Source of the DNA: a virus
Length of the DNA: 39,867 bases
Reading direction: 5' to 3' (one strand)
IMG/VR virus record: IMGVR_UViG_3300044684_000054
Location: 1-39,867 of that record
Position 1 is the stretch's first letter. Every line of letters starts with the position of its first letter. This document shows, one piece after another, positions 6,550-39,783 of the stretch. The position numbers and the translations under genes were made by a program. Under the pieces are notes generated by a model, which saw nothing but the letters and a program-made list of their open reading frames with translations, was not told the DNA's origin and ran no database searches.

Positions 6550-8811
6550 TCATTGGCTTCCCGAAAGCAAGCCGGGAACGAGCCCCGGAGCCAACAGCGT
6601 CCCGTAATCACGTACCGCATTGCCTACTGGCTTGGCAAATGCTGGGCGCTGTGTAAGCAACGATGCCGCCAAGCGCTGGCCCAGTTGGGTGTACGGCAAT
6701 GACCCAGCCCCAATCCCTCCCAGAGTAGCCAACGTCGGCCCTGGTGCAGATACCAAGCCTGCGCCAATGGACCCCGGCGCAAGGAGCGCCATCAGACCGC
6801 GCCCGACCGTCCCAGAATCGGGGTATTTCGATCCAAGAACGCGCTGCCCGGCACCTGACAGGTCTTGCATGAGCGCATTACCTGTCGCCGTTGCCCCCTT
6901 ACCAGCACTCTTATCGGCTGAGCGCACAGCACTTTGCAGTTGTGCCGCAGTGAATACGCCTTCGTTGTTCATCGCGCCAGGCGATGCAGCTGCAGTCCGA
7001 AGGCGCACGAAATTGGCCCATGCTTGATTCGCGTCGCTCAATTTCTTGGCAAGATCAGGAGGGTTCACACGTGTGAGGTTATTGTCCACTGCATCCCGCA
7101 GTGCGCTCACCGCTGCCCCTAATTGCCGATTGTCAAACGACGCGTCTCCTAGATACCCCTTGGCCGTCCGCGCCAGTTCACTTTGCACACCTTTCAGGTC
7201 AATACCATCCATGGTGTTCTGAGGCCCTAGCTTCCCGAAAATCTGGGTTTTCAGGATGTTCATGAATGTCTTTTGCTGGGCCTCTGGCAAACCCTGAGCC
7301 ATTTGACCAAGTTTGGTCACATCAGCTTGGAATTGCGGGTCTACTTTGAGCTGCATCTTTGGCAACACATCGTCATAAACGGCTCCGATCTTGTTGCCGA
7401 CCTGCTCAATGCCTTCTTGCCCGACTTTGCCGGTGAACTTCTGACCAATCGGCGCAAGTGCCTCGTTATATGCGGCTCGGTTGAAGTCGCTCACTGCACG
7501 TTGCTGAGCATTCTTAATCATGTCCCCCAGCACTGGAACACTGCTGAGCTTTGCTTCTGTACGCGCCGCGCCCCCTCCCAGAATCTGGCCAGGAGTCGGC
7601 GTAACACCCCTTGCCATCAGGGTGCGCACATCATCCGAAACATTCGGAGAGATCACATTACCTACGGCACGAGCAACAGGCGCCAGTGCGCCACCAATAG
7701 CAGCGCCCGTCCCAATCTGCTTCAGTTTTTCAAGTCCGAAGTTCTGTGCGTCGGGAGAAACAGGAGTCAACGCAGCATTGGCGGCACCTAGACCCGCTCC
7801 GACTCCAGCGGCCCCAGCCGCAGTCCGGGCTACAGGAGCAAAAGCAGCCAAGGGAGCGGTAGCTACGATAGATCCTCCAATGTCACCCGCGGTAGCCGTT
7901 ACTGGATTTGCTTGCTGATAGGGATTGAATTCACCGCCGATCTTTCGCAGGCCAGCATTCGCATCATTCACTAGCCAATTGCCAGCGCGTTGCACCATGT
8001 TCTGCGGCGCTTGTCCAGTAATCAGGCTGCTCAGGTTACGCTCTTGGCCCAACCCTCCCAGTGCTTGAAGACCTTTGCCAAGGAGTTGCTGGCCGCCGAG
8101 AACAATACTGCCGAAGCCGTGACCTAAGCCTGCGCCAAGAGATGCCAACTTCCCCGGTTGCTCTGCATCTGTATTCTTTTTCTGTACTTCAGGAGAACTG
8201 GCAGCCGCCGTTGGCGTTGACGTTGCGGGAGTTCCTTTGGTAAAAGCGGACAGAATTGCGTCGTCACTCTGCGCACCGTCTTGCGCCGGAGCAGCAGAAG
8301 CATTCCCATCTTTCGTGAATGACGCGAGAATTGCATCATCATCCGCTACAGGCTTTGCGCTTGTGGGGATGCCGGGCAGCATCTGCGTTTTCGGGGTTGG
8401 CGCAACAGCCGCATTCAGACGGCCGAGAACTTGGCCAGCATAGGGATGCGTGCCCTTCGTGACTTCTGGCGAGGCAGAGCCTTCCTTGTAGGCAATCAGA
8501 GCCTTAACAGGATCGTTGAACTTATCCAGTTGCTGGCCGAGATACCAAGTGCCCACATCTACACCAATCTGCGGCTTTAGCAGATCCTGCATGGTGTATT
8601 TGGTGCCATTGGCCTTGTTATAGTCGGCCAATGCGGCTTGGCGAACTTGCATTGCTCCCCATGCCCCACGACCGCCCCCATCCATGTTTGTGGCAGATGG
8701 ATTGCCGCTGGATTCCTGCTGGACGACAGACCCCACCAACGCAGGGTCAACGTTGTATCGCTGTGCAGCTGCGTAGATGTATTGCGAAAGGTCCGGGGCG
8801 TTCTTCGCCAT
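6550..8811 (-). CDS. Virion-associated lytic transglycosylase / DNA ejection protein
   Basis: A 753-residue protein. Residues 5-130 form an SLT (lysozyme-like) domain: catalytic Glu33 in QQESSGNP, then GAWGAMQV near residues 49-56 and a downstream AYKEG segment. The rest is a long Ala/Gly-rich region with hydrophobic glycine-zipper-like stretches (about residues 225-380), expected of internal virion proteins that line a channel through the host envelope. It plays the role of T7 gp16 or P22 gp16-type ejection proteins, opening peptidoglycan at entry. GGGAG precedes the start. It is the last and largest of three consecutive ejection-type genes. Confidence 0.88.
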   Translation of the reverse strand: MAKNAPDLSQYIYAAAQRYNVDPALVGSVVQQESSGNPSATNMDGGGRGAWGAMQVRQAALADYNKANGTKYTMQDLLKPQIGVDVGTWYLGQQLDKFNDPVKALIAYKEGSASPEVTKGTHPYAGQVLGRLNAAVAPTPKTQMLPGIPTSAKPVADDDAILASFTKDGNASAAPAQDGAQSDDAILSAFTKGTPATSTPTAAASSPEVQKKNTDAEQPGKLASLGAGLGHGFGSIVLGGQQLLGKGLQALGGLGQERNLSSLITGQAPQNMVQRAGNWLVNDANAGLRKIGGEFNPYQQANPVTATAGDIGGSIVATAPLAAFAPVARTAAGAAGVGAGLGAANAALTPVSPDAQNFGLEKLKQIGTGAAIGGALAPVARAVGNVISPNVSDDVRTLMARGVTPTPGQILGGGAARTEAKLSSVPVLGDMIKNAQQRAVSDFNRAAYNEALAPIGQKFTGKVGQEGIEQVGNKIGAVYDDVLPKMQLKVDPQFQADVTKLGQMAQGLPEAQQKTFMNILKTQIFGKLGPQNTMDGIDLKGVQSELARTAKGYLGDASFDNRQLGAAVSALRDAVDNNLTRVNPPDLAKKLSDANQAWANFVRLRTAAASPGAMNNEGVFTAAQLQSAVRSADKSAGKGATATGNALMQDLSGAGQRVLGSKYPDSGTVGRGLMALLAPGSIGAGLVSAPGPTLATLGGIGAGSLPYTQLGQRLAASLLTQRPAFAKPVGNAVRDYGTLLAPGLVPGLLSGSQ

Positions 8812-8815
8812 GCTA

Positions 8816-10357
8816 CTAGCTCCCTGGCATAGAAATAATGCCGCTACGCACGAGATTACCCAAATTCGCCTTAAATTGGGGAAGCGTTCCAGCTTTCTTT
8901 TGGCGCTCCAAGAATGCTTTCTGTTGTTCGGGATTCATCTCGACAAACACGAAAGCGTCTGGGCTTACTTGCTTGTTCCATTGCGATTGCCATTGGTTGA
9001 ACTTGTCCGGCGTATTGCCGGAGTTCTGCCATGCATAATCCTGAGCCGCGCGCATCTTTTCGGCAGCAATCGTCTTCACCAAGATGTCATCGTTCGCCAT
9101 CTTGGAGATGTTCGGGTTCGCATTGCCAGTCACTGCGGCGTTCAGGCGCGCATCCGTGCCGGTCCCCACAGAGCCAGAAACTGACGTGGCATAGTTCGTG
9201 AGAATCTTCTTGAACTCGTCGTAATCCTTCACATCGCCAGTCCAGCCGATAGCCTTTGCGGTGTCAGGAGCCAATGCATTGAAGAACGACTTCGCTTGAT
9301 TGCGCCAATCCGTGCCAGGACCCGTATTGATGCCGCTAAGGACATCCCGGGCCTGCGCAAGTAGGTTGATACGCATGGGTGCATCTGCGGCTGCATTGTG
9401 CAGGTTCTGTGCCGCCGTGGCCGACTGCCCAGCTTGGGCCGTTGCTCCAGCCGACTGTGTAGCCTGTTGCGCGGGAGAAAGCCCGGTCTGCAATGCACCG
9501 GCAGGCACGCCACCTTCATTAGGGGCACTCGCATTGGCTCCGGGGAATCGGCCTGTATAGCCTCCAGGAGCTGCACCAGGTTGCGCGCCTCCGCCTTGAA
9601 GTTGCGAAAGCCGCTGAGCACGTGTGATGGTGTAGGGCGTTCCCTCGGGAGTAACGCCTTGCACTTCGCCTGCAAGGAACTCAGGGCCTGGAGTATTCAG
9701 TAGGGTGCCCGCTACCGTAGGCTTGCCGGACAGAGGATCGACATTCAGAACCTGCGTTTGACCGCCCGTGTTCACGATCTGAGTGCGTGGCAGCATCGCT
9801 TGAATCTTCGCCTCACCAGACAGTGAGTTCAGATAGTGCTGCTTGATCCATTCGGCCTGAGCGGCTGGATCAGATGGGATACTGGCGACTTCACGTTGTG
9901 CCTGCTCCACGGGCAGAGTGCCAGAGGCGATAGCTTGGCCCATCGCATTGATGATCTGACCCGACATATCAGCTTTCCCGTACTGCGGAGACGCCATCAA
10001 GGAACCAATGCGGTTCCGGATGTCGGTTTGCTGCTTGAGCGCAAGTTCCAATTTTCCCGTGTCATAGGAAAGTTGCTGATTGCGCTGTTGAGAAATCTTC
10101 GCCATGAACTCGGGTAGGAAAGCCCCCGCGCCCCCTTGCGTAGTAAGCGCCTGTAGTTTCCCGAAGTCCACTTGACCCGTTTGCGGGTCGGTGGCCTGCT
10201 GATATGCCTGCGAGATGATCTGATTCGCGCCCAGCTGTTGCGACGCCGACTGAAGTCCAATCAACCCGCGAGCAGTATCAACAGTCTGCCCAAGTTGGGC
10301 CAAACCGGTCTGCGCAGGCTTGATTCCAAGAGGAATGGACGGATCGATTTCAGGCAT
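8816..10357 (-). CDS. Internal virion / DNA ejection protein
   Basis: A 513-residue protein with no membrane segment, Gln- and Ala-rich. A low-complexity Pro/Gly/Ala stretch at about residues 250-310 separates a helical N-terminal part from a helical C-terminal part containing DWRNQAKSFFNALAP. Its place between the transglycosylase and a small Gly/Ala-rich protein corresponds to the second ejection protein of P22-like and BPP-1-like phages (P22 gp20 position). No motif fixes its role, so the assignment is from order and composition. It is separated from its neighbours by only a few bases. Confidence 0.7.
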   Translation of the reverse strand: MPEIDPSIPLGIKPAQTGLAQLGQTVDTARGLIGLQSASQQLGANQIISQAYQQATDPQTGQVDFGKLQALTTQGGAGAFLPEFMAKISQQRNQQLSYDTGKLELALKQQTDIRNRIGSLMASPQYGKADMSGQIINAMGQAIASGTLPVEQAQREVASIPSDPAAQAEWIKQHYLNSLSGEAKIQAMLPRTQIVNTGGQTQVLNVDPLSGKPTVAGTLLNTPGPEFLAGEVQGVTPEGTPYTITRAQRLSQLQGGGAQPGAAPGGYTGRFPGANASAPNEGGVPAGALQTGLSPAQQATQSAGATAQAGQSATAAQNLHNAAADAPMRINLLAQARDVLSGINTGPGTDWRNQAKSFFNALAPDTAKAIGWTGDVKDYDEFKKILTNYATSVSGSVGTGTDARLNAAVTGNANPNISKMANDDILVKTIAAEKMRAAQDYAWQNSGNTPDKFNQWQSQWNKQVSPDAFVFVEMNPEQQKAFLERQKKAGTLPQFKANLGNLVRSGIISMPGS

Positions 10358-10362
10358 GATGA

Positions 10363-11136
10363 TCAGCCGTAGGAAGCCGGGTCATTAAAGTACGTGGTGG
10401 GGTCGTTTGCGTTGAACCCAGTCGCCCACGACCCCGAGTTAAAAGAATTACCGTTGTTCCTCAACAAGGAATACAGACCAATCCCCGATCCTAGAGAACC
10501 TAGGCCACTATTGATTGCGTTGGCCGAGCCAATCTGCCCCGCCGCTTGGGCATTCGCGCCTCCCATGAGGGCGCCCCCAGCATTGGATGCCGTCTGGATG
10601 CCTGCGTTACCCACGCCAGCTGCGGCGTTCTGTCCAAGCCCAACAAGACCAGCCAGCCGGTTGTACTGATCGGCATTGATGCCGTAGTTCGTCATGAACT
10701 GCTGCAATGCCCGGTTGTATTGCTGCCCGTAGGTCTGATCCGCCAATCCAGTCGTGTAGTCCGCAATGCCCTTCATCTGGGCGCCAGAAAGGCCAAGACC
10801 TTTTGCAGAGGCAGCGTTATTCACCCCCTTCAAGCCTTGCTGAAGGGTGAACTGGTAGCCGGGCGTCGATTCCAGATTAGATGGATCGAAATTGAATTGA
10901 CGCCCCAGAACCCCGCTATCCAGCATCTGCTGCAAGCGGCCAATGCCGGACTGGCCCAAATCCATGTAAGGGCGCAGGTTCTGCTGCATTTGCTGGAACT
11001 GCTGCCATTGCATAGCAGCGGCATCTCGCGCTGCATCAGCCTGGGAATTGCCAGCACTGCGAGCGGCGTCAGAACTCATCGCGCTGCCAGCGACGCCTGC
11101 AACTGCGGTGCCGATGCCTACTGCGGCTGCGACCAT
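10363..11136 (-). CDS. Small ejection / DNA-transfer protein
   Basis: A 257-residue protein opening with a Gly/Ala-rich hydrophobic segment (VAAAVGIGTAVAGVAGSAM), then a Gln-rich helical region (about 35-60), and a Gly/Ala/Asn-rich C-terminal half. This pattern (glycine-zipper N-terminus, tyrosine/glutamine-rich centre) is typical of the first ejection protein in podophages, at the position of P22 gp7. It should be packaged in the capsid and leave with the DNA to build the trans-envelope conduit. No enzyme motif is seen. Confidence 0.72.
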   Translation of the reverse strand: MVAAAVGIGTAVAGVAGSAMSSDAARSAGNSQADAARDAAAMQWQQFQQMQQNLRPYMDLGQSGIGRLQQMLDSGVLGRQFNFDPSNLESTPGYQFTLQQGLKGVNNAASAKGLGLSGAQMKGIADYTTGLADQTYGQQYNRALQQFMTNYGINADQYNRLAGLVGLGQNAAAGVGNAGIQTASNAGGALMGGANAQAAGQIGSANAINSGLGSLGSGIGLYSLLRNNGNSFNSGSWATGFNANDPTTYFNDPASYG

Positions 11137-11147
11137 GGTCTACTCCT

Positions 11148-11603
11148 TCAAAGCCACTTCTCGTGAATCGTCTCGACCGGCTTGAAATCGAGATAGCGGA
11201 ACAACGCAGATGCGTCGTGCTCAGTCTTGCTACCCATCGCCCAACGTTTCACCCCACGGCGGCGTAGTTCCTTCTCCGTAAAGCGCAACATGCGGACGCC
11301 AGCCATGCCAGTGCGCTTGTCTTCTCGCACGAAGAAAATGTCTGGCGAACATGTCAGGCATGACCGGTAATGCAGCCCCGGTGCGATAAAGGCCACTAGA
11401 TACGCAACGATTGCGCCTTCCTCGCGACCAATCACCATCAACAACGAACCGTCAGCCTCGCGCGCACGGTATTGCTCCACGATGGGCTCCAAGGGCACGC
11501 CGTGATCCTTGTGCGTCGAAATCTCACCGTAGTGCTCATGAAGCAATGGCTTGAGTTCTCCGTACACATCGCTGAACTGCTCGATCATGAAGGTGATAGA
11601 CAT
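11148..11603 (-). CDS. GNAT-family acetyltransferase
   Basis: A 151-residue protein with the GNAT order: N-terminal strand-helix part, a central strand pair (GSLLMVIGREEGAIVAYLVAFI), then an Arg/Gly-rich segment (REDKRTGMAGVRML) in the place of the acetyl-CoA pyrophosphate loop, and a final Phe/Tyr segment (ASALFRYLDFKPV) typical of the family. It would transfer an acyl group from CoA to an amine; the substrate is unknown. It is sandwiched between ejection-protein and hydroxylase genes in the structural operon, one base from the hydroxylase stop. Position suggests modification of a virion or host protein during assembly, but that is inference. Confidence 0.8.
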   Translation of the reverse strand: MSITFMIEQFSDVYGELKPLLHEHYGEISTHKDHGVPLEPIVEQYRAREADGSLLMVIGREEGAIVAYLVAFIAPGLHYRSCLTCSPDIFFVREDKRTGMAGVRMLRFTEKELRRRGVKRWAMGSKTEHDASALFRYLDFKPVETIHEKWL

Positions 11604-11604
11604 G

Positions 11605-12180
11605 TCAGAACCTCAGATCAGCAACCAGATGAATTCGATCAGAAGCGCTGTTATTGGTCACCTCATGCTCAATGGCATTTTGGAACCACCAAACTTCGCT
11701 TTCTTTCATCCAAACTTGTTCTTCGCCACAACGAAATACGTTGCCGGGCTCCGACTGGATCACGATGTGATAGCGATCCCAGTACGAGGCATGCCAGGGC
11801 GAATCAGCATGCGGGAAGATGCGGCCACCCGGCACAATCCGATTGAGCATGCAACGCCCCAGACGAGTAGCCCCGGTCGCGGTCATGAGCGCCATGATCA
11901 GCGCACGAGCTTCCGGCAATTCGTTAATCTCCGGACGCCATGGGCATTCATGCAGGTCATACCCAGCTAGCTTGTTCTGTTTGTACAGTTCGAGCTGCTC
12001 GTCGTTCTCAACAGGCACATGATCCTGAAATCGCAGGTAAATCGTGTCCGTCTCGCCAAAAGGCCCCTGCGGAAACTTGCGCAGGAAGTCATCCGCCTTC
12101 CACAGCTCGGGCTTTCTGTAGATTGCATTCAGAAGGGGCTTGACGTTCATCCCCTCAGCGAGACGTAGGAAATTCCGCAT
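11605..12180 (-). CDS. Aspartyl/asparaginyl beta-hydroxylase-like 2-oxoglutarate/Fe(II) oxygenase
   Basis: A 191-residue protein with the facial-triad pattern of cupin-fold 2-oxoglutarate dioxygenases: His124-x-Asp126 in FPHADSPWH, distal His172 in NAIEHEVTN, and Arg182 in DRIHLVADL in the position that binds 2-oxoglutarate. YHIVIQS and WWFQN strands also match the Asp/Asn hydroxylase family (PF05118-like). The family hydroxylates Asp, Asn, Pro or other residues or small molecules. The start codon overlaps the stop of the upstream structural gene by one base (TAATG), so the enzyme is made as part of the virion operon. Substrate unknown; a capsid or ejection protein is the natural guess. Confidence 0.85.
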   Translation of the reverse strand: MRNFLRLAEGMNVKPLLNAIYRKPELWKADDFLRKFPQGPFGETDTIYLRFQDHVPVENDEQLELYKQNKLAGYDLHECPWRPEINELPEARALIMALMTATGATRLGRCMLNRIVPGGRIFPHADSPWHASYWDRYHIVIQSEPGNVFRCGEEQVWMKESEVWWFQNAIEHEVTNNSASDRIHLVADLRF

Positions 12181-12521
12181 TAGCGGATACCTCCGACCTG
12201 ATAGGTTTCGCTCGCAGTCGGCGTGATCGATGCCCCCGTGTTATTAGAGAACGTGATGCCGATCTGATCGGTCCCGCTGGCGCGCACGTTGACGATGCCC
12301 AGGCCTGCTTGAGCGGTCGGTTTAGTCACGTACACAACATCGCCAACACGCACACCTTTCACCGTGAAGGTCTGTTCAGCCGTCGTGTTCGCGGCCACAG
12401 CGACAGGAGAAAGCGTCACCGCCACCCGGTAGATGGAAGTCACCTTGTCAGCCGGTGCTTCTTTGAACGAGAGGGAGGCGACGGTCGGTTCGTCGGTGGC
12501 TACGCCAAGAAATGCGGTCAT
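12180..12521 (-). CDS. Small virion-region protein, beta-rich
   Basis: A 113-residue protein with regular beta-strand-like alternation (AEQTFTVKGVRVGDVVYVTKP, then GIGIVNVRAS-like and GITFSNNTG segments). Such beta-sandwich modules occur in capsid decoration and fibre proteins. No enzyme motif is visible. It is followed directly, with a one-base overlap, by the hydroxylase gene, so it could be that enzyme's substrate or simply a neighbour. Specific role unknown. Confidence 0.65.
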   Translation of the reverse strand: MTAFLGVATDEPTVASLSFKEAPADKVTSIYRVAVTLSPVAVAANTTAEQTFTVKGVRVGDVVYVTKPTAQAGLGIVNVRASGTDQIGITFSNNTGASITPTASETYQVGGIR

Positions 12522-12523
12522 GA

Positions 12524-12865
12524 TTAGCTTCCTGAAGTTTCGTAAACGCCGCCCATGAGAGTGATGGCCGCGGCGGTATCGGCCAATGCTTGTAGCGTCA
12601 TCCCAGTTTCGAGTTGCAGCCCAATGGCGGCAGGAGGAACGTAAGACTGCCCCGGAGACAGGGAATAAGCCGACAGGAATGCATTAGAAGATCCGACAGA
12701 ACCTCCCGATGGCACTCGGTACAAAGTCACCTTCACAACCCCAGCACTCGTGTTATTCAAGGAAAGGTTGTTGATAGTGGATGTGGTCCCGGTGGGCGCC
12801 GTGTAGTACACCACTGCCGATGTGGTTAGCTGCGCCGCAGGGATTGCCTTGGGTACTCGTTGCAT
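12524..12865 (-). CDS. Small virion-region protein, beta-rich
   Basis: A 113-residue protein, Ser/Thr/Ala-rich, with predicted beta strands throughout (STINNLSLNNTSAG, VKVTLYRVP, GMTLQALADT). It resembles short phage structural proteins that give an immunoglobulin- or jelly-roll-like fold. It is one of a pair of equal-length genes (with 12180-12521) between the neck genes and the modification enzymes. Function unknown; decoration or tail accessory is plausible. Confidence 0.62.
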   Translation of the reverse strand: MQRVPKAIPAAQLTTSAVVYYTAPTGTTSTINNLSLNNTSAGVVKVTLYRVPSGGSVGSSNAFLSAYSLSPGQSYVPPAAIGLQLETGMTLQALADTAAAITLMGGVYETSGS

Positions 12866-12868
12866 TTG

Positions 12869-13402
12869 TTATCCCGTCACCAGTCCTTTCACGTAAACCT
12901 TGTTCACTCCCACTGGAATAGGCGAAGTGAAGGTCAAGTTCGCGCCAACAAGAGATGCCACTTGGTCATCCCCTTGAAACGCAGCATCGAAGAAGATCCA
13001 CAAACGCGAGATCGACCCGAAAGAGCGCGACAACGTGAGCGATGAAGTCGTGCCTGGTGTGAAATCCACACCCGCTGTGAAGGTGTTGTCCACGATGTCC
13101 ACAATCGGAGCAATCGGGGCGAAGATCATCTCAAGCAGCGCTTCTTGTCTGCTAGGAACCGCTGTAGTTACATCCGAAGCAATCGCATCCTGTTGTGGCT
13201 GCGTAGCAATCGAAGGAAACGTCTGCTCTACGCTGAACACATCATCCAGCGTGATTGCGCCAGGAATTTCTCCGTTTGCGCCGCCAGTACGCCGCCATAG
13301 CTGGATCAAGAACAGGAACCAGGCTTCCGTGACAGTCCCAGTCTTGGGATCAACGAAAGGCACGTTGACGAGTGGGACATCGCTTTGAACGGTAGTGGTC
13401 AT
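12869..13402 (-). CDS. Neck/tail accessory protein sharing a domain with the tailspike
   Basis: A 177-residue protein. Residues 10-40 (VNVPFVDPKTGTVTEAWFLF) form a short motif common in phage tail-attachment proteins. Residues 106-173 are clearly related to tailspike residues 98-167: both read AG-DFTPG, then a WxFFD strand, DDQ, and TSPIPVGV-KV-VK. Its gene overlaps gp10-like by ATGA. The shared module suggests a common binding or assembly function, for example docking at the tail hub. The rest is not recognised. Confidence 0.68.
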   Translation of the reverse strand: MTTTVQSDVPLVNVPFVDPKTGTVTEAWFLFLIQLWRRTGGANGEIPGAITLDDVFSVEQTFPSIATQPQQDAIASDVTTAVPSRQEALLEMIFAPIAPIVDIVDNTFTAGVDFTPGTTSSLTLSRSFGSISRLWIFFDAAFQGDDQVASLVGANLTFTSPIPVGVNKVYVKGLVTG

Positions 13403-14826
13403 TGGTTATTCGACTCCGCTTGAACGAATGCCCCCAGGAGGGACGTTTTAACGGGAGCCGACCACGACAGTTCAAATACGCGGTCGCGTGCCATGCCAAG
13501 CCGCTGGAACTGAAGAGAAGTCAGGTATTCGCCTTCCAGACCCAGACTTGTTTCAATCTGATTGCCCCATGACTTGCCGCGCGTATCGCTCCAGCGCAGA
13601 TATACCGGGACTGCATCTCCAGGACCTGTGCCATTGCCGACTTCCATGTTGGCAATGAATTCACGATAGCGGATACGGTCAGAGTTATCGTCTACGCTAT
13701 GCATGAACGAACGAATACGCGGAATAGGGTTGCCGGCATCCGTGTATGCGTTGATGTCCCACATATACAGATTGCCGTTCTCCCAGTCCCCAACGATGGG
13801 TTGGCCATAGGCCGATGCGTAACAATTGGCGCGATGGCGATGCAGAACGCCGTTGTTATCGACCCATGAGAGTTCGTTCCACTGGTCCGTACTCAGGTCG
13901 TACTGCCAGGTCTTATCTGCACTCGGGAAGATCAGGACATAGAAGAAATGTCCTTCGATCTCATAAGTGAAGCCAATTGCGTCAGAGATGTCCGGGTAGG
14001 TCGCAATCTCGTTGTCGAGCGCGAACGTCGAAATCTTCACCGAATTAAACTGTTCGCTGCGGCTGACAAATGCCACGCCCTCCTTGGATCGGGCCAGCCA
14101 ATAGATTTGGCCGTCCATCTGGGCAATGGAACCAACCGCAGAGCAACCGTATTGCATGAACACGCCTGGCAGCCGTTCGTACGGGAATGCAGCAGCGCCG
14201 GAGTTGAACCACACCTCGGAGGTCTGCTCGCCTAGCAGGTAGACATACCGCTTCGAGACAATGGCTCCCACGAGCTTGTCCGAGAAACCCGACTTGGACG
14301 CAAAGTCGGTCGCGTCGAAGGAAATCTCATTCGCCAGCGACACATACCATTGCTGCGTATCCGGCCGATTCAGGACAAGGAAGCCGTCACCGTAATCAAC
14401 CCGGTTGGCTCCGAGAAACGCTGCATCTGTCAGCAGGGCGAACTTGTTGTCGGCCAACTTGACGGTCCATGCATTGGGAGACCCATCCACGATCATCAGA
14501 TACGTGGAGTTATCGGTCATGGAGACGAAGCCCGTTTCCGAGCCAATGTCCCCTAGCTTTGTCAGCTGCCAAGATGACGAAATGGCATACACCGACGAAC
14601 CGCAAATGCCGTACGTAGTGCCATTGGATGCTGTCCACAGACCGCGCCATCCCGTTCCGAAGGTAGGCGTCGCAGTGGCTAGAAGCGTCAGCCCCGGAGT
14701 GGGGTAGTACGTAAAGGGGAAGATGGAACCTTGGGGGTTCTTCTCTCCATAGAGGTTGACGGACCGCTGTGCGCTCGCAACAACGCTGCGAGACGTGTAG
14801 GCGCCGGTGATAAGCGGCACCTTCAT
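13399..14826 (-). CDS. Packaged-DNA stabilization protein, P22 gp10-like tail hub
   Basis: A 475-residue protein, close to P22 gp10 in length (472). It opens MKVPLITGAYTSRS with AQRSVNLYGE shortly after, which is characteristic of the family, and continues as a beta-propeller-like series of strands with conserved W/Y-G turns. gp10 proteins form the hexameric hub that plugs the portal/gp4 channel and carries the tailspikes and needle. The gene lies between gp4-like and a domain-sharing accessory gene, the same order as in P22-type neck modules, with ATGA overlaps on both sides. Confidence 0.88.
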   Translation of the reverse strand: MKVPLITGAYTSRSVVASAQRSVNLYGEKNPQGSIFPFTYYPTPGLTLLATATPTFGTGWRGLWTASNGTTYGICGSSVYAISSSWQLTKLGDIGSETGFVSMTDNSTYLMIVDGSPNAWTVKLADNKFALLTDAAFLGANRVDYGDGFLVLNRPDTQQWYVSLANEISFDATDFASKSGFSDKLVGAIVSKRYVYLLGEQTSEVWFNSGAAAFPYERLPGVFMQYGCSAVGSIAQMDGQIYWLARSKEGVAFVSRSEQFNSVKISTFALDNEIATYPDISDAIGFTYEIEGHFFYVLIFPSADKTWQYDLSTDQWNELSWVDNNGVLHRHRANCYASAYGQPIVGDWENGNLYMWDINAYTDAGNPIPRIRSFMHSVDDNSDRIRYREFIANMEVGNGTGPGDAVPVYLRWSDTRGKSWGNQIETSLGLEGEYLTSLQFQRLGMARDRVFELSWSAPVKTSLLGAFVQAESNNQ

Positions 14827-15569
14827 GGCCCATTACTCCCGATGTAGAAGTCCCCGTAAATGTTGTACGTACCACTGCGGCCACGAAGTGCCGGAGGCAT
14901 TTGCAACCGGGGAATCTGAGCGTTTGCCTCTTCGATGATGCGCATCGAGGCTTCTGCCTTCCCTCGCACGACATCACTGACCGGCAACCCGTAGAACGGA
15001 TACAGCTCCAGCGTGAGGTTCCACATCAGGGCGGCTTTGTACTCAGGCGGCAGCACAATCTGGTCGCTCAGATTCGTGAACTGCTGAATCTGCTGCATGA
15101 CTACGATGTGGATTTCGTACTGATTATTCGGGATCGGCCAGATGTAAAGGTTGCCCAGCGGGTTCGCGGCGTCGTAGAACGCAAACTGCGGGAAAGCGTT
15201 CAGCGACTTGATACTGATGCGGCTGTAATCCTCACGTGCGCGCAGAATTTCCAGCGGATAGTCCACCGGCAGCGGAGTCGCAACGTTCTGGCGGAAGTAA
15301 GCAAACTCGAGCTTCGGAGGGCGCGGCGTATCGAAATCGCCGCCAGGTCCCACCGTATAGGACTGTTGCACCGTTGCCTGCTTGGCGAGGTCGATCAACT
15401 GATAGACCATGTAACGACGACGCTGCCACTGCGCCATCATCATGTTGAGCAGGTTGAAGCAGTCGTTCGTGTCTTCTGCCGACGCGGTTTGCCCTACGCC
15501 GATGACGTTGGCCGTCTTCAACGCAAGGTTGATGATGTCGCGCGGGGTTGTCGGCAGCGGGCTAGCCAT
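14823..15569 (-). CDS. Tail accessory factor, P22 gp4-like head-completion protein
   Basis: A 248-residue protein. TPRDIINLALKTANVIGVGQTASAED-type N-terminal helices followed by NLLNMMMAQWQRRR and a later NLTLELYPFYGLPVS segment match the gp4/head-completion family that binds under the portal ring. P22 gp4 is shorter (166 residues), while the BPP-1-like branch has proteins of this length. It would extend the portal channel and receive the gp10 hub. The gene runs straight into gp10 with a four-base overlap. Confidence 0.85.
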   Translation of the reverse strand: MASPLPTTPRDIINLALKTANVIGVGQTASAEDTNDCFNLLNMMMAQWQRRRYMVYQLIDLAKQATVQQSYTVGPGGDFDTPRPPKLEFAYFRQNVATPLPVDYPLEILRAREDYSRISIKSLNAFPQFAFYDAANPLGNLYIWPIPNNQYEIHIVVMQQIQQFTNLSDQIVLPPEYKAALMWNLTLELYPFYGLPVSDVVRGKAEASMRIIEEANAQIPRLQMPPALRGRSGTYNIYGDFYIGSNGP

Positions 15570-38512: not shown

Positions 38513-38704
38513 TTGAAGATCAGTCTAGAAAAGTGGGCCGAAAAGAACTTCGATCCGGCGCCGCACATCAGCACGCTGCGCGCGTGGGCTCGCCAATCGA
38601 AGATTTACCCACAGCCGCAGAAGCTGGGGCGCGCGTATTACGTGGATGAGAACGCAGTGTTTGCCCTGGATGCAAAGCCGCGCCTCGTTGACAGGATTGC
38701 ATGA
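38513..38704 (+). CDS. xis: Excisionase, lambda Xis-like
   Basis: A 63-residue winged-helix protein: MKISLEKWAEKNFDPAPHIS, STLRAWARQSKIYP and AYYVDENAVF. It matches the lambda Xis family in length and pattern (arginine-rich recognition helix, wing). It would bend attachment DNA and turn the integrase to excision. The start is TTG at 38513 with GGGAGG six bases upstream; no ATG fits. Its stop overlaps the integrase start by ATGA. Confidence 0.88.
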   Translation: MKISLEKWAEKNFDPAPHISTLRAWARQSKIYPQPQKLGRAYYVDENAVFALDAKPRLVDRIA

Positions 38705-39783
38705 TGGCCGCGAGACCACGCATCAAGAAACGCGCGAACTGGCCTGCGAATCTGCATGAGCCACGGCCCGGCTATTACGTATTCCGTGATCCCCGGGATG
38801 GGAGCACCCATGTGATCGGCCGCGTGCCGCTGGCAGAAGCGATTTTCGAGGTGCACCAGGCAAATGCCAAGGTCGCCGCATCGACGCAGAGGGTGGCGCT
38901 GGCTGATCGGATCAATGCGAGTCCGGAGACAGTGGACGAGCTTCTAGCCAAAATGCCAGTTGAAGGATTTAAGCGGTCAAGCCTGTACTCGCACCGCACG
39001 ATTGACAAAAAGATCTCCGCCGCGCTGGGCGAGATGCGCTGCTGTGAGTTGACAACCAAGCCCATTGCTGACCTGATCGAGAGCATCCATCGGGAAGGCA
39101 AGCACCGCATGTCGCAGATGGTGCGCAGCCGACTTATCAAGGTTTGCAAACGCGGCATTGCGTTGGGCTGGATGACCTCTAATCCAGCGGAGGTTACGGA
39201 GAACCCCAAGGCCAAGGTGCGACGGTCGCGTCTGACGCTGGAGGTATTCAATGCGATCCTGGAGAAGGCGCCCGAGGTTCAACCATGGCTAGCGAATGCG
39301 ATGTTGCTGGCCCTCGTCAGCGGACAGGACAGATCAACCGTGGCGCGCTGGACTCGGGCGAGCATTGACGGGGATGTTGCTGTGGTGCGGCGCACAAAGA
39401 CAGAGGTCAGCATTGCCATTCCCTTGGCTTTGCGGATGGATGCGGTAGGAATGTCGCTGCGGGAGGTAATCGCCAAGTGCAAGGCGACTGGCGTTGTCAG
39501 CCAATACCTGATCCACCACGTCCGGAATGGGGCTAAGGTGAAGCGAGGCGACCCGGTATCAATCGGGGCTGTGAGCGTGGCGTTTGCGAATGCAAGGCGG
39601 TTGGCAGGCATCCCAGATGCAGGAGCGCCCACCTTCCACGAGATCCGCAGCCTGTCGAAACGAACGTATCAGGAGCAGGGCAACGTTGATACGAAAGCGC
39701 TGCTTGGCCACCTGTCCGAAACTGCGGCAAACCTGTACGCTGACCCGCGCGGGATTGCCCCGATCAAGGTCAGCATACGATAG
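38701..39783 (+). CDS. int: Tyrosine integrase, lambda Int family
   Basis: A 360-residue tyrosine recombinase with the catalytic set Arg211 (GQDRSTV), Lys233 (RTKTEV), His313 and Arg316 (FHEIRSL), His337 (LLGHLSE) and nucleophile Tyr346 (NLYADPRG). The spacing closely follows lambda Int, including the C-terminal tail after the tyrosine. The N-terminal 60 residues (YYVFRDPRDGSTHV) form the arm-binding domain and residues 65-170 the core-binding domain. It should integrate the phage at an attP just downstream. Start overlaps the excisionase stop; a second ATG follows directly. Confidence 0.95.
   Translation: MMAARPRIKKRANWPANLHEPRPGYYVFRDPRDGSTHVIGRVPLAEAIFEVHQANAKVAASTQRVALADRINASPETVDELLAKMPVEGFKRSSLYSHRTIDKKISAALGEMRCCELTTKPIADLIESIHREGKHRMSQMVRSRLIKVCKRGIALGWMTSNPAEVTENPKAKVRRSRLTLEVFNAILEKAPEVQPWLANAMLLALVSGQDRSTVARWTRASIDGDVAVVRRTKTEVSIAIPLALRMDAVGMSLREVIAKCKATGVVSQYLIHHVRNGAKVKRGDPVSIGAVSVAFANARRLAGIPDAGAPTFHEIRSLSKRTYQEQGNVDTKALLGHLSETAANLYADPRGIAPIKVSIR

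Follow-up and report, generated by a model that had tools for sequence, protein, structure and literature searches.

A linked 2OG hydroxylase and GNAT acyltransferase gene pair in the slot upstream of a podophage ejection gene, and an ejection-protein N-terminus that tracks the slot enzyme

The position immediately before the first ejection gene is held by gene 14 in phage P22 and by gene 13 in T7, and these slot genes have so far lacked a clear biochemical role. A marine-phage GNAT has been suggested to correspond to T7 gp13 (PMC6775973). Another phage GNAT is Rac (LUZ19 gp28) of the phiKMV-like phages; its gene immediately precedes the first structural gene, and Rac brings about the cleavage of host RNA polymerase alpha, apparently via acetylation of host factors (PMC7552054). 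As for the ejection proteins, P22 gp7 loses a 20-aa leader to host OpdA, the burst is still ~60% when gp7 lacks those 20 residues, and an N-terminal portion of gp7 and gp20 carries both proteins into procapsids (PMC8402733). In Vibrio Zobellviridae and a Manatee Spring phage, the slot upstream of the first ejection gene is held by GNATs of phrog_1249 that have no hydroxylase beside them; the GNAT subfamily described here differs from these relatives by its hydroxylase partner. The Pseudomonas phage PfAn1 has the same hydroxylase-GNAT-ejection order as our locus (53% and 46% identity), with an EJ7-type ejection protein (XRX11818.1) starting MVAAAVG, but its neck genes are inverted and its hydroxylase is annotated as hypothetical protein. 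In the literature that we searched, no description of the hydroxylase-GNAT pair in phages was found.

The window, which means the whole stretch of DNA analysed, is an IMG/VR virus record of 39,867 bases. It encodes a lambda-type tyrosine integrase (38701-39783), so the phage is probably temperate. The whole pair region lies on the minus strand and contains the following features.

6550..8811, minus strand: EJ16, ejection protein with an N-terminal SLT transglycosylase (PF01464, 1.6e-18)
8816..10357, minus strand: EJ15, second ejection protein, assigned by its position (that of P22 gp20/T7 gp15)
10363..11136, minus strand: EJ7, 257 aa, small DNA-ejection protein, P22 gp7-like (phrog_598, 6.7e-36), starting MVAAAVGIG
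11122..11133, minus strand: codons 2-5 of EJ7 (VAAA), proposed to form the mature N-terminus and the region targeted
11148..11603, minus strand: GNAT-A, 151 aa, predicted GNAT-fold acyltransferase (phrog_1249, 8.2e-12)
11605..12180, minus strand: ASPH, 191 aa, predicted 2OG/Fe(II)-dependent hydroxylase of the Asp_Arg_Hydrox family (PF05118, 6.2e-15)
12180..12521, minus strand: S1, small gene whose stop overlaps the ASPH start (TAATG)
12524..12865, minus strand: S2, small gene upstream of the slot (phrog_20100, 2.2e-6)
12869..13402, minus strand: S3, in the position of the P22 tail needle, assigned by position only
13399..14826, minus strand: Hc3, P22 gp10-like head-closure protein (phrog_578, 1.3e-100)
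14823..15569, minus strand: Ad, head-tail adaptor (phrog_12985, 2e-32; phrog_637, 3.9e-10)

An earlier note on this DNA had described two enzyme genes side by side between neck and ejection genes, and the coordinates bear this out: GNAT-A begins one base past the ASPH stop, the ASPH ATG sits in a TAATG in which base 12180 is common to ASPH and S1, and the pair is flanked by neck genes upstream (phrog_578) and by the P22 gp7-like ejection gene downstream (phrog_598). Pfam and PHROG searches gave no family match for EJ15 or S1, and S2 is the upstream neighbour in 40 loci. In L007, L009 and L012, at ~2.0-2.4 kb, the S1 homologue lies between portal and scaffold genes, away from the hydroxylase.

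By profile, active site and fold, ASPH is a PF05118 2OG/Fe(II) hydroxylase with predicted activity; it scores 55.8 bits against a Pfam cut-off of 22.6. In an alignment of 92 homologues, H124, D126, R136, H172, N176 and R182 are invariant, and alignment to AspH and proline hydroxylases gives H124, D126 and H172 as iron ligands and R136/H138/R182 as 2OG residues. The HxD, distal His and 2OG Arg (H124, D126, H172 and R182) that the earlier note had read from the window are thus kept, and the homologues, checked for loss of catalytic residues, retain them. The structural model (pLDDT 91.5) has a double-stranded beta-helix fold and matches structures of the family with Z 14-15 and rmsd 2.3-3.3 over 144-163 aligned residues; it resembles proline 3-hydroxylase, proline cis-4-hydroxylase, a nucleoside-antibiotic hydroxylase and AspH, with Z 14.8-15.3 to the proline hydroxylases, and the top sequence match among solved structures is L-proline cis-4-hydroxylase (1e-12). 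The double-stranded beta-helix, the 2OG-binding R-x-H and the distal H...R at matching positions are common to ASPH and to 4p7w (L-proline cis-4-hydroxylase), 1e5r (proline 3-hydroxylase) and 5apa (human AspH), while ASPH differs from them in being phage-encoded, 191 aa long and free of a TPR or transmembrane part, at ~16-20% identity. In AspH proper, the EGF-domain Asp/Asn hydroxylase, the iron-binding Asp is replaced by Gly (HTG), a mark that the phage protein lacks, as it keeps the Asp (HAD).

ASPH is under strong purifying selection, with dN of 0.07-0.13 in close pairs and dS above 2 or saturated. Over 76 loci, virion genes correlated with one another at r 0.83-0.91 and GNAT moderately (0.54-0.73), while ASPH correlated poorly, with virion genes at 0.23-0.36 and with GNAT at 0.44. 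ASPH alleles move between virion backbones: for example, the capsid protein of L097 is 78% identical to that of the window but its ASPH only 54%, and in L048 the capsid protein is 41% identical but ASPH 82%. Besides, L336 and L097 are window-like backbones carrying a distant hydroxylase allele (43-54%), that is, an allele exchange in place.

GNAT-A is a member of the GNAT fold, and its catalysis is predicted. Its match to Acetyltransf_1 (14.7 bits) is below the Pfam gathering threshold of 20.7, while L171, a member of the same family, passes the cut-off with 32.4 bits, and phrog_1249, which GNAT-A matches, is labelled "acetyltransferase". The AlphaFold model (pLDDT 95.5) has the GNAT fold with Z 16.4 over 144 residues and rmsd 2.8; it reaches Z 16 with several acetyltransferases, including the ribosomal-protein-alanine N-acetyltransferase 7n1l (Z 16.2), and because many GNATs tie at Z ~16, the structural likeness does not single out a substrate. 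H24, Y68, H78, D88, R97 and K126 are invariant in an alignment of 92. The acyl-CoA loop, which the earlier note took as kept, is so in part: R97 of the R/Q-x-x-G-x-G/A motif is invariant, but the glycines are shifted, giving a non-canonical loop.

A search for the gene pair in relatives had been set as a test beforehand, and it turned out that the co-location is conserved far beyond close relatives. Searches of viral contigs gave 308 ASPH and 366 GNAT relatives, and we retained the best 80 on either side; searching more deeply with ASPH gave 406. More than 230 viral loci encode both ASPH and GNAT, nearly always adjacent and mostly with overlapping stop and start codons, although these locus counts are non-independent events since the loci are best matches with shared ancestry. 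Both genes are present in 163 of 167 loci, and 3 of the 4 others are contigs truncated at the hydroxylase; in a more distant search the two are adjacent in 69 of 75 loci. At 224 junctions between the ASPH stop and the nearest GNAT start, the overlap is ATGA in 154 and TAATG in 33. As the genes are co-located in hundreds of relatives, their adjacency exceeds chance, and ASPH and GNAT-A form a linked functional unit with intact active sites. In one locus (L233) the gene order is reversed, and in a single metagenomic contig (L192:2462-3580) one ORF between the terminase and portal genes fuses the hydroxylase and GNAT domains. Four prophages (L258, L259, L260 and L262) keep both genes on opposite strands, ~4 kb apart; their hosts are Robbsia, Caballeronia glathei, Paraburkholderia and Burkholderia turbans (Burkholderiales). 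Generally, the prophages with the pair are assigned to Burkholderiales (including Achromobacter and Janthinobacterium) and Acinetobacter, all hosts being inferred. The lone or non-adjacent hydroxylases of L019, L189 and L338 do not contradict the pairing in the lineage of the window.

The slot upstream of EJ7 was surveyed with the head-closure protein Hc3 as anchor, so that the relatives were not picked by the pair itself, in 44 loci of one broad backbone with at least 3.5 kb downstream of Hc3. ASPH and GNAT-A fill 17 of the 44 slots. Another 14 hold GNAT-B, which never occurs with ASPH and has 25-30% identity to the GNAT of the window (profile-profile 99%), and one very distant locus has ASPH alone. 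Neither ASPH nor GNAT-A/B was found by profile in the remaining 12, where the gene before EJ7 is a GNAT-like protein of type C (4 loci), type D (1, L304), a short GNAT-like protein of type E (4) or a cupin-like protein (2), and one locus has no obvious slot gene. The short type E proteins gave no Pfam match to GNATs better than E 0.01. L304 passes the Pfam cut-offs for both Acetyltransf_3 (1.4e-6) and DUF2824, the family of P22 gp14 (6.8e-6), and also matches phrog_651 (4e-18) and phrog_1249 (2e-9); type C aligns to L304 (profile-profile 94.5%). This slot thus has at least five alternative occupants, the pair among them, and most are GNAT-like.

The survey and the L304 matches place the GNAT of the window in the P22 gene 14/T7 gene 13 slot, with GNAT-like proteins interchanging there. 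We rejected a homology of the window GNAT to gp13 or gp14, as P22 gp14 (DUF2824) and T7 gp13 (Phage_T7_Gp13) are like it in position but hhalign detected no direct homology (probability 0.1-0.3%); the tie of P22 gp14 to GNATs is indirect, via L304, and that of T7 gp13 is weak (L324, phrog_308, 0.009). As written, the reading of the pair in the earlier note, a virion maturation step of an uncommon kind, is not supported: GNATs are common occupants of this slot, which also holds T7 gp13 and P22 gp14.

Modification of a virion protein had also been predicted, with capsid, neck and ejection proteins as candidates. We looked in seven virion proteins for alignment columns that distinguish ASPH-plus from ASPH-minus relatives, and complete separation by column was found only in EJ7 (best columns at residues 1, 2, 7, 12 and 20), with two weaker segregating columns in EJ15. 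No comparable columns were found in the head-closure protein, adaptor, S2, S3 and capsid protein, and a hydroxylase-specific Asp, Asn or Pro site sought in these same five was not found either. The prediction thus narrows to an ejection protein and is better supported there: a capsid or neck target gains no support, while the EJ7 N-terminus changes together with the slot enzyme, and MV[AV]A is kept even where the genes are unlinked.

Among the distinct proteins downstream of GNAT-A, 99 start with MVAA or MVGA, and in 24 VAAA comes after a leader; another 20 lack the motif and are mostly DC33-type proteins and not EJ7. VAAA at the start or after a leader is thus present in ~123 of 129 EJ7-type proteins downstream of GNAT-A, a tally that was not preselected on the motif and whose denominator (~129) is our own count. 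By comparison, the first residues of the EJ7 conservation profile are circular, as its EJ7s were preselected for MV[AG]A. The VAAA codons vary synonymously (33 codings), and EJ7s average ~43% identity. Other slot genes go with other starts: MC[VI]AAA with GNAT-B (14 of 14), MSF with type C (4 of 4) and DP[AV]TA after a leader with type E (4 of 4), and T7 gp14 itself starts MCWAAA. When L305 is compared with L301, L309 and L304 (L319 was left out), the EJ7 bodies are up to 88-90% identical and the N-termini are unrelated, fitting the slot gene. In most loci only a few bases separate the GNAT stop from the EJ7 start, but in the four unlinked prophages EJ7 lies ~5 kb from GNAT and still starts with MVAAA (3) or MVVAA (1). 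The EJ7 N-terminus, in short, tracks the slot enzyme and not the rest of EJ7.

We propose that the pair are dedicated enzymes of the podophage DNA-injection module, in which GNAT acylates the EJ7 N-terminus and the hydroxylase also modifies EJ7, a tentative reading to which we give a probability of roughly 0.4. Residue 2 of EJ7 is usually V, C, G, A, S or P, whose small side chains allow removal of Met under the methionine-aminopeptidase rule, so Met-Val-Ala-Ala-Ala would become Val-Ala-Ala-Ala. During late gene expression, GNAT would then acylate, most simply N-alpha-acetylate, the exposed N-terminus; this would remove the terminal charge of an Ala-rich hydrophobic segment, which might then be suited to packing in the head or to insertion into the cell envelope on ejection. 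The support for this step is indirect, and we infer from sequence which protein is the substrate, that the modification is at the N-alpha position and that ejection benefits. ASPH, which occurs almost exclusively with GNAT-A, may act as a second modifier of EJ7, which is proposed more weakly than the GNAT step.

Some observations count against EJ7 as the target. About 24 EJ7s bear an N-terminal extension before VAAA, so an N-alpha modification at VAAA would need cleavage of the leader. DC33-type phages have the pair between the terminase and portal genes, followed by an ejection-like protein that begins with MG or MA and has an Ala-rich hydrophobic start and a coil; in four prophages GNAT abuts the portal gene. 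Besides, an enzyme adapted to a single virion protein would be expected to track the virion genes better than the ASPH alleles do.

The main rival is a host-protein target like that of Rac, because Rac disables host RNA polymerase and ASPH does not track the virion genes; we regard it as unlikely. Among phage GNATs at the border of a structural operon, Rac is the nearest one studied by experiment (PMC7552054), the A-type GNATs of VPv81 and DC33 have a similar place upstream of the portal, and the L048 comparison, like the movement of ASPH alleles between backbones, would suit a target outside the virion. However, Rac occupies a different slot without a hydroxylase partner, and its similarity to GNAT-A is marginal (E 0.0013 in a six-sequence search, hhalign probability 9%). 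Genes of the window type lie deep within the late virion operon, and a host target leaves the tracking of enzyme type by the EJ7 N-terminus unexplained. That tracking could also arise with no enzyme-substrate relation at all, in a recombination-prone slot with crossovers in the conserved EJ7, the N-terminus mattering in some other way such as procapsid targeting. GNAT and the 5' end of EJ7 could travel together by local recombination, given the few bases between them in most loci and the crossover homology that conserved EJ7 bodies would offer, and scaffold or coat could do the selecting, as the N-terminal portion of P22 gp7/gp20 directs procapsid entry (PMC8402733). This account is improbable in our judgement, since the four unlinked cases retain MVAA or MVVA and pure hitch-hiking should decay, while VAAA is kept in ~123 of 129 proteins among EJ7s that are ~43% identical and vary in their codons.

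Two further readings take the enzymes out of protein modification or out of catalysis. GNAT might be a non-catalytic assembly factor like T7 gp13 or P22 gp14, with the hydroxylase as an accessory chaperone or an inactive relic. The genomic slot is the same, gp13 is described in one database record as a scaffold on which the incorporation of gp6.7 depends, the marine-phage GNAT has been likened in print to T7 gp13 (PMC6775973), and the slot protein of L304 is above the Pfam cut-offs for both the GNAT and the P22 gp14 families. Set against the invariant catalytic residues of both families and a purifying selection on the hydroxylase unlike that of a relic, this appears quite improbable. Slighter still are the chances of a small molecule or lipid as the substrate, either an amino acid or a component of the cell surface, for instance against superinfection. 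PF05118 does include free-proline hydroxylases, as well as the lipid A hydroxylase LpxO, the best sequence match among solved structures is the cis-4-hydroxylase of L-proline, and GNAT-like enzymes often act on small amines; but both proteins are compact and single-domain, are encoded in a late virion operon and have no membrane anchor that we could see, and the linkage to the type of EJ7 N-terminus would be unexpected.

If the pair does modify EJ7 as proposed, the slot gains a mechanism, namely the chemical finishing of the N-terminus of the first ejected protein. This would explain why GNAT-like proteins recur in the slot, and specific mass shifts would be expected on a single small protein. 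It would also add a rare example of a phage virion protein as the substrate of a 2OG hydroxylase. A more elaborate form, which we consider doubtful, is a two-enzyme step of hydroxylation and N-terminal acylation (acetyl or longer) matched to the N-terminus of the ejected protein, with enzyme and N-terminus exchanged as cassettes among podophages, including the T7 gp14-like MC[VW]AAA. PfAn1, an isolated Pseudomonas fluorescens phage with the whole arrangement, makes a test by mass spectrometry practical.

Several minor observations were made in the loci. The extension of EJ7 before VAAA in L198, L228, L086, L075, L066 and L227 is basic or amphipathic and recalls the OpdA-cleaved leader of P22 gp7. 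The cupin-like protein that replaces GNAT before EJ7 (L295:8177-8626 and L337:6437-6871) matches phrog_12032, labelled as short tail fibre, and in L295 the small genes upstream of the slot have a gene for an HNH homing endonuclease-like protein (7362-7877) inserted among them. T7 gp7 (L339:331-732, upstream of gp7.3 and the portal) looked GNAT-like by eye and was set aside, as it had no Pfam match. Limnohabitans phage DC33 (L018, PQ492659) is filed as Inoviridae, but its genes for a large terminase subunit and a portal of the T7 type make this label look wrong.
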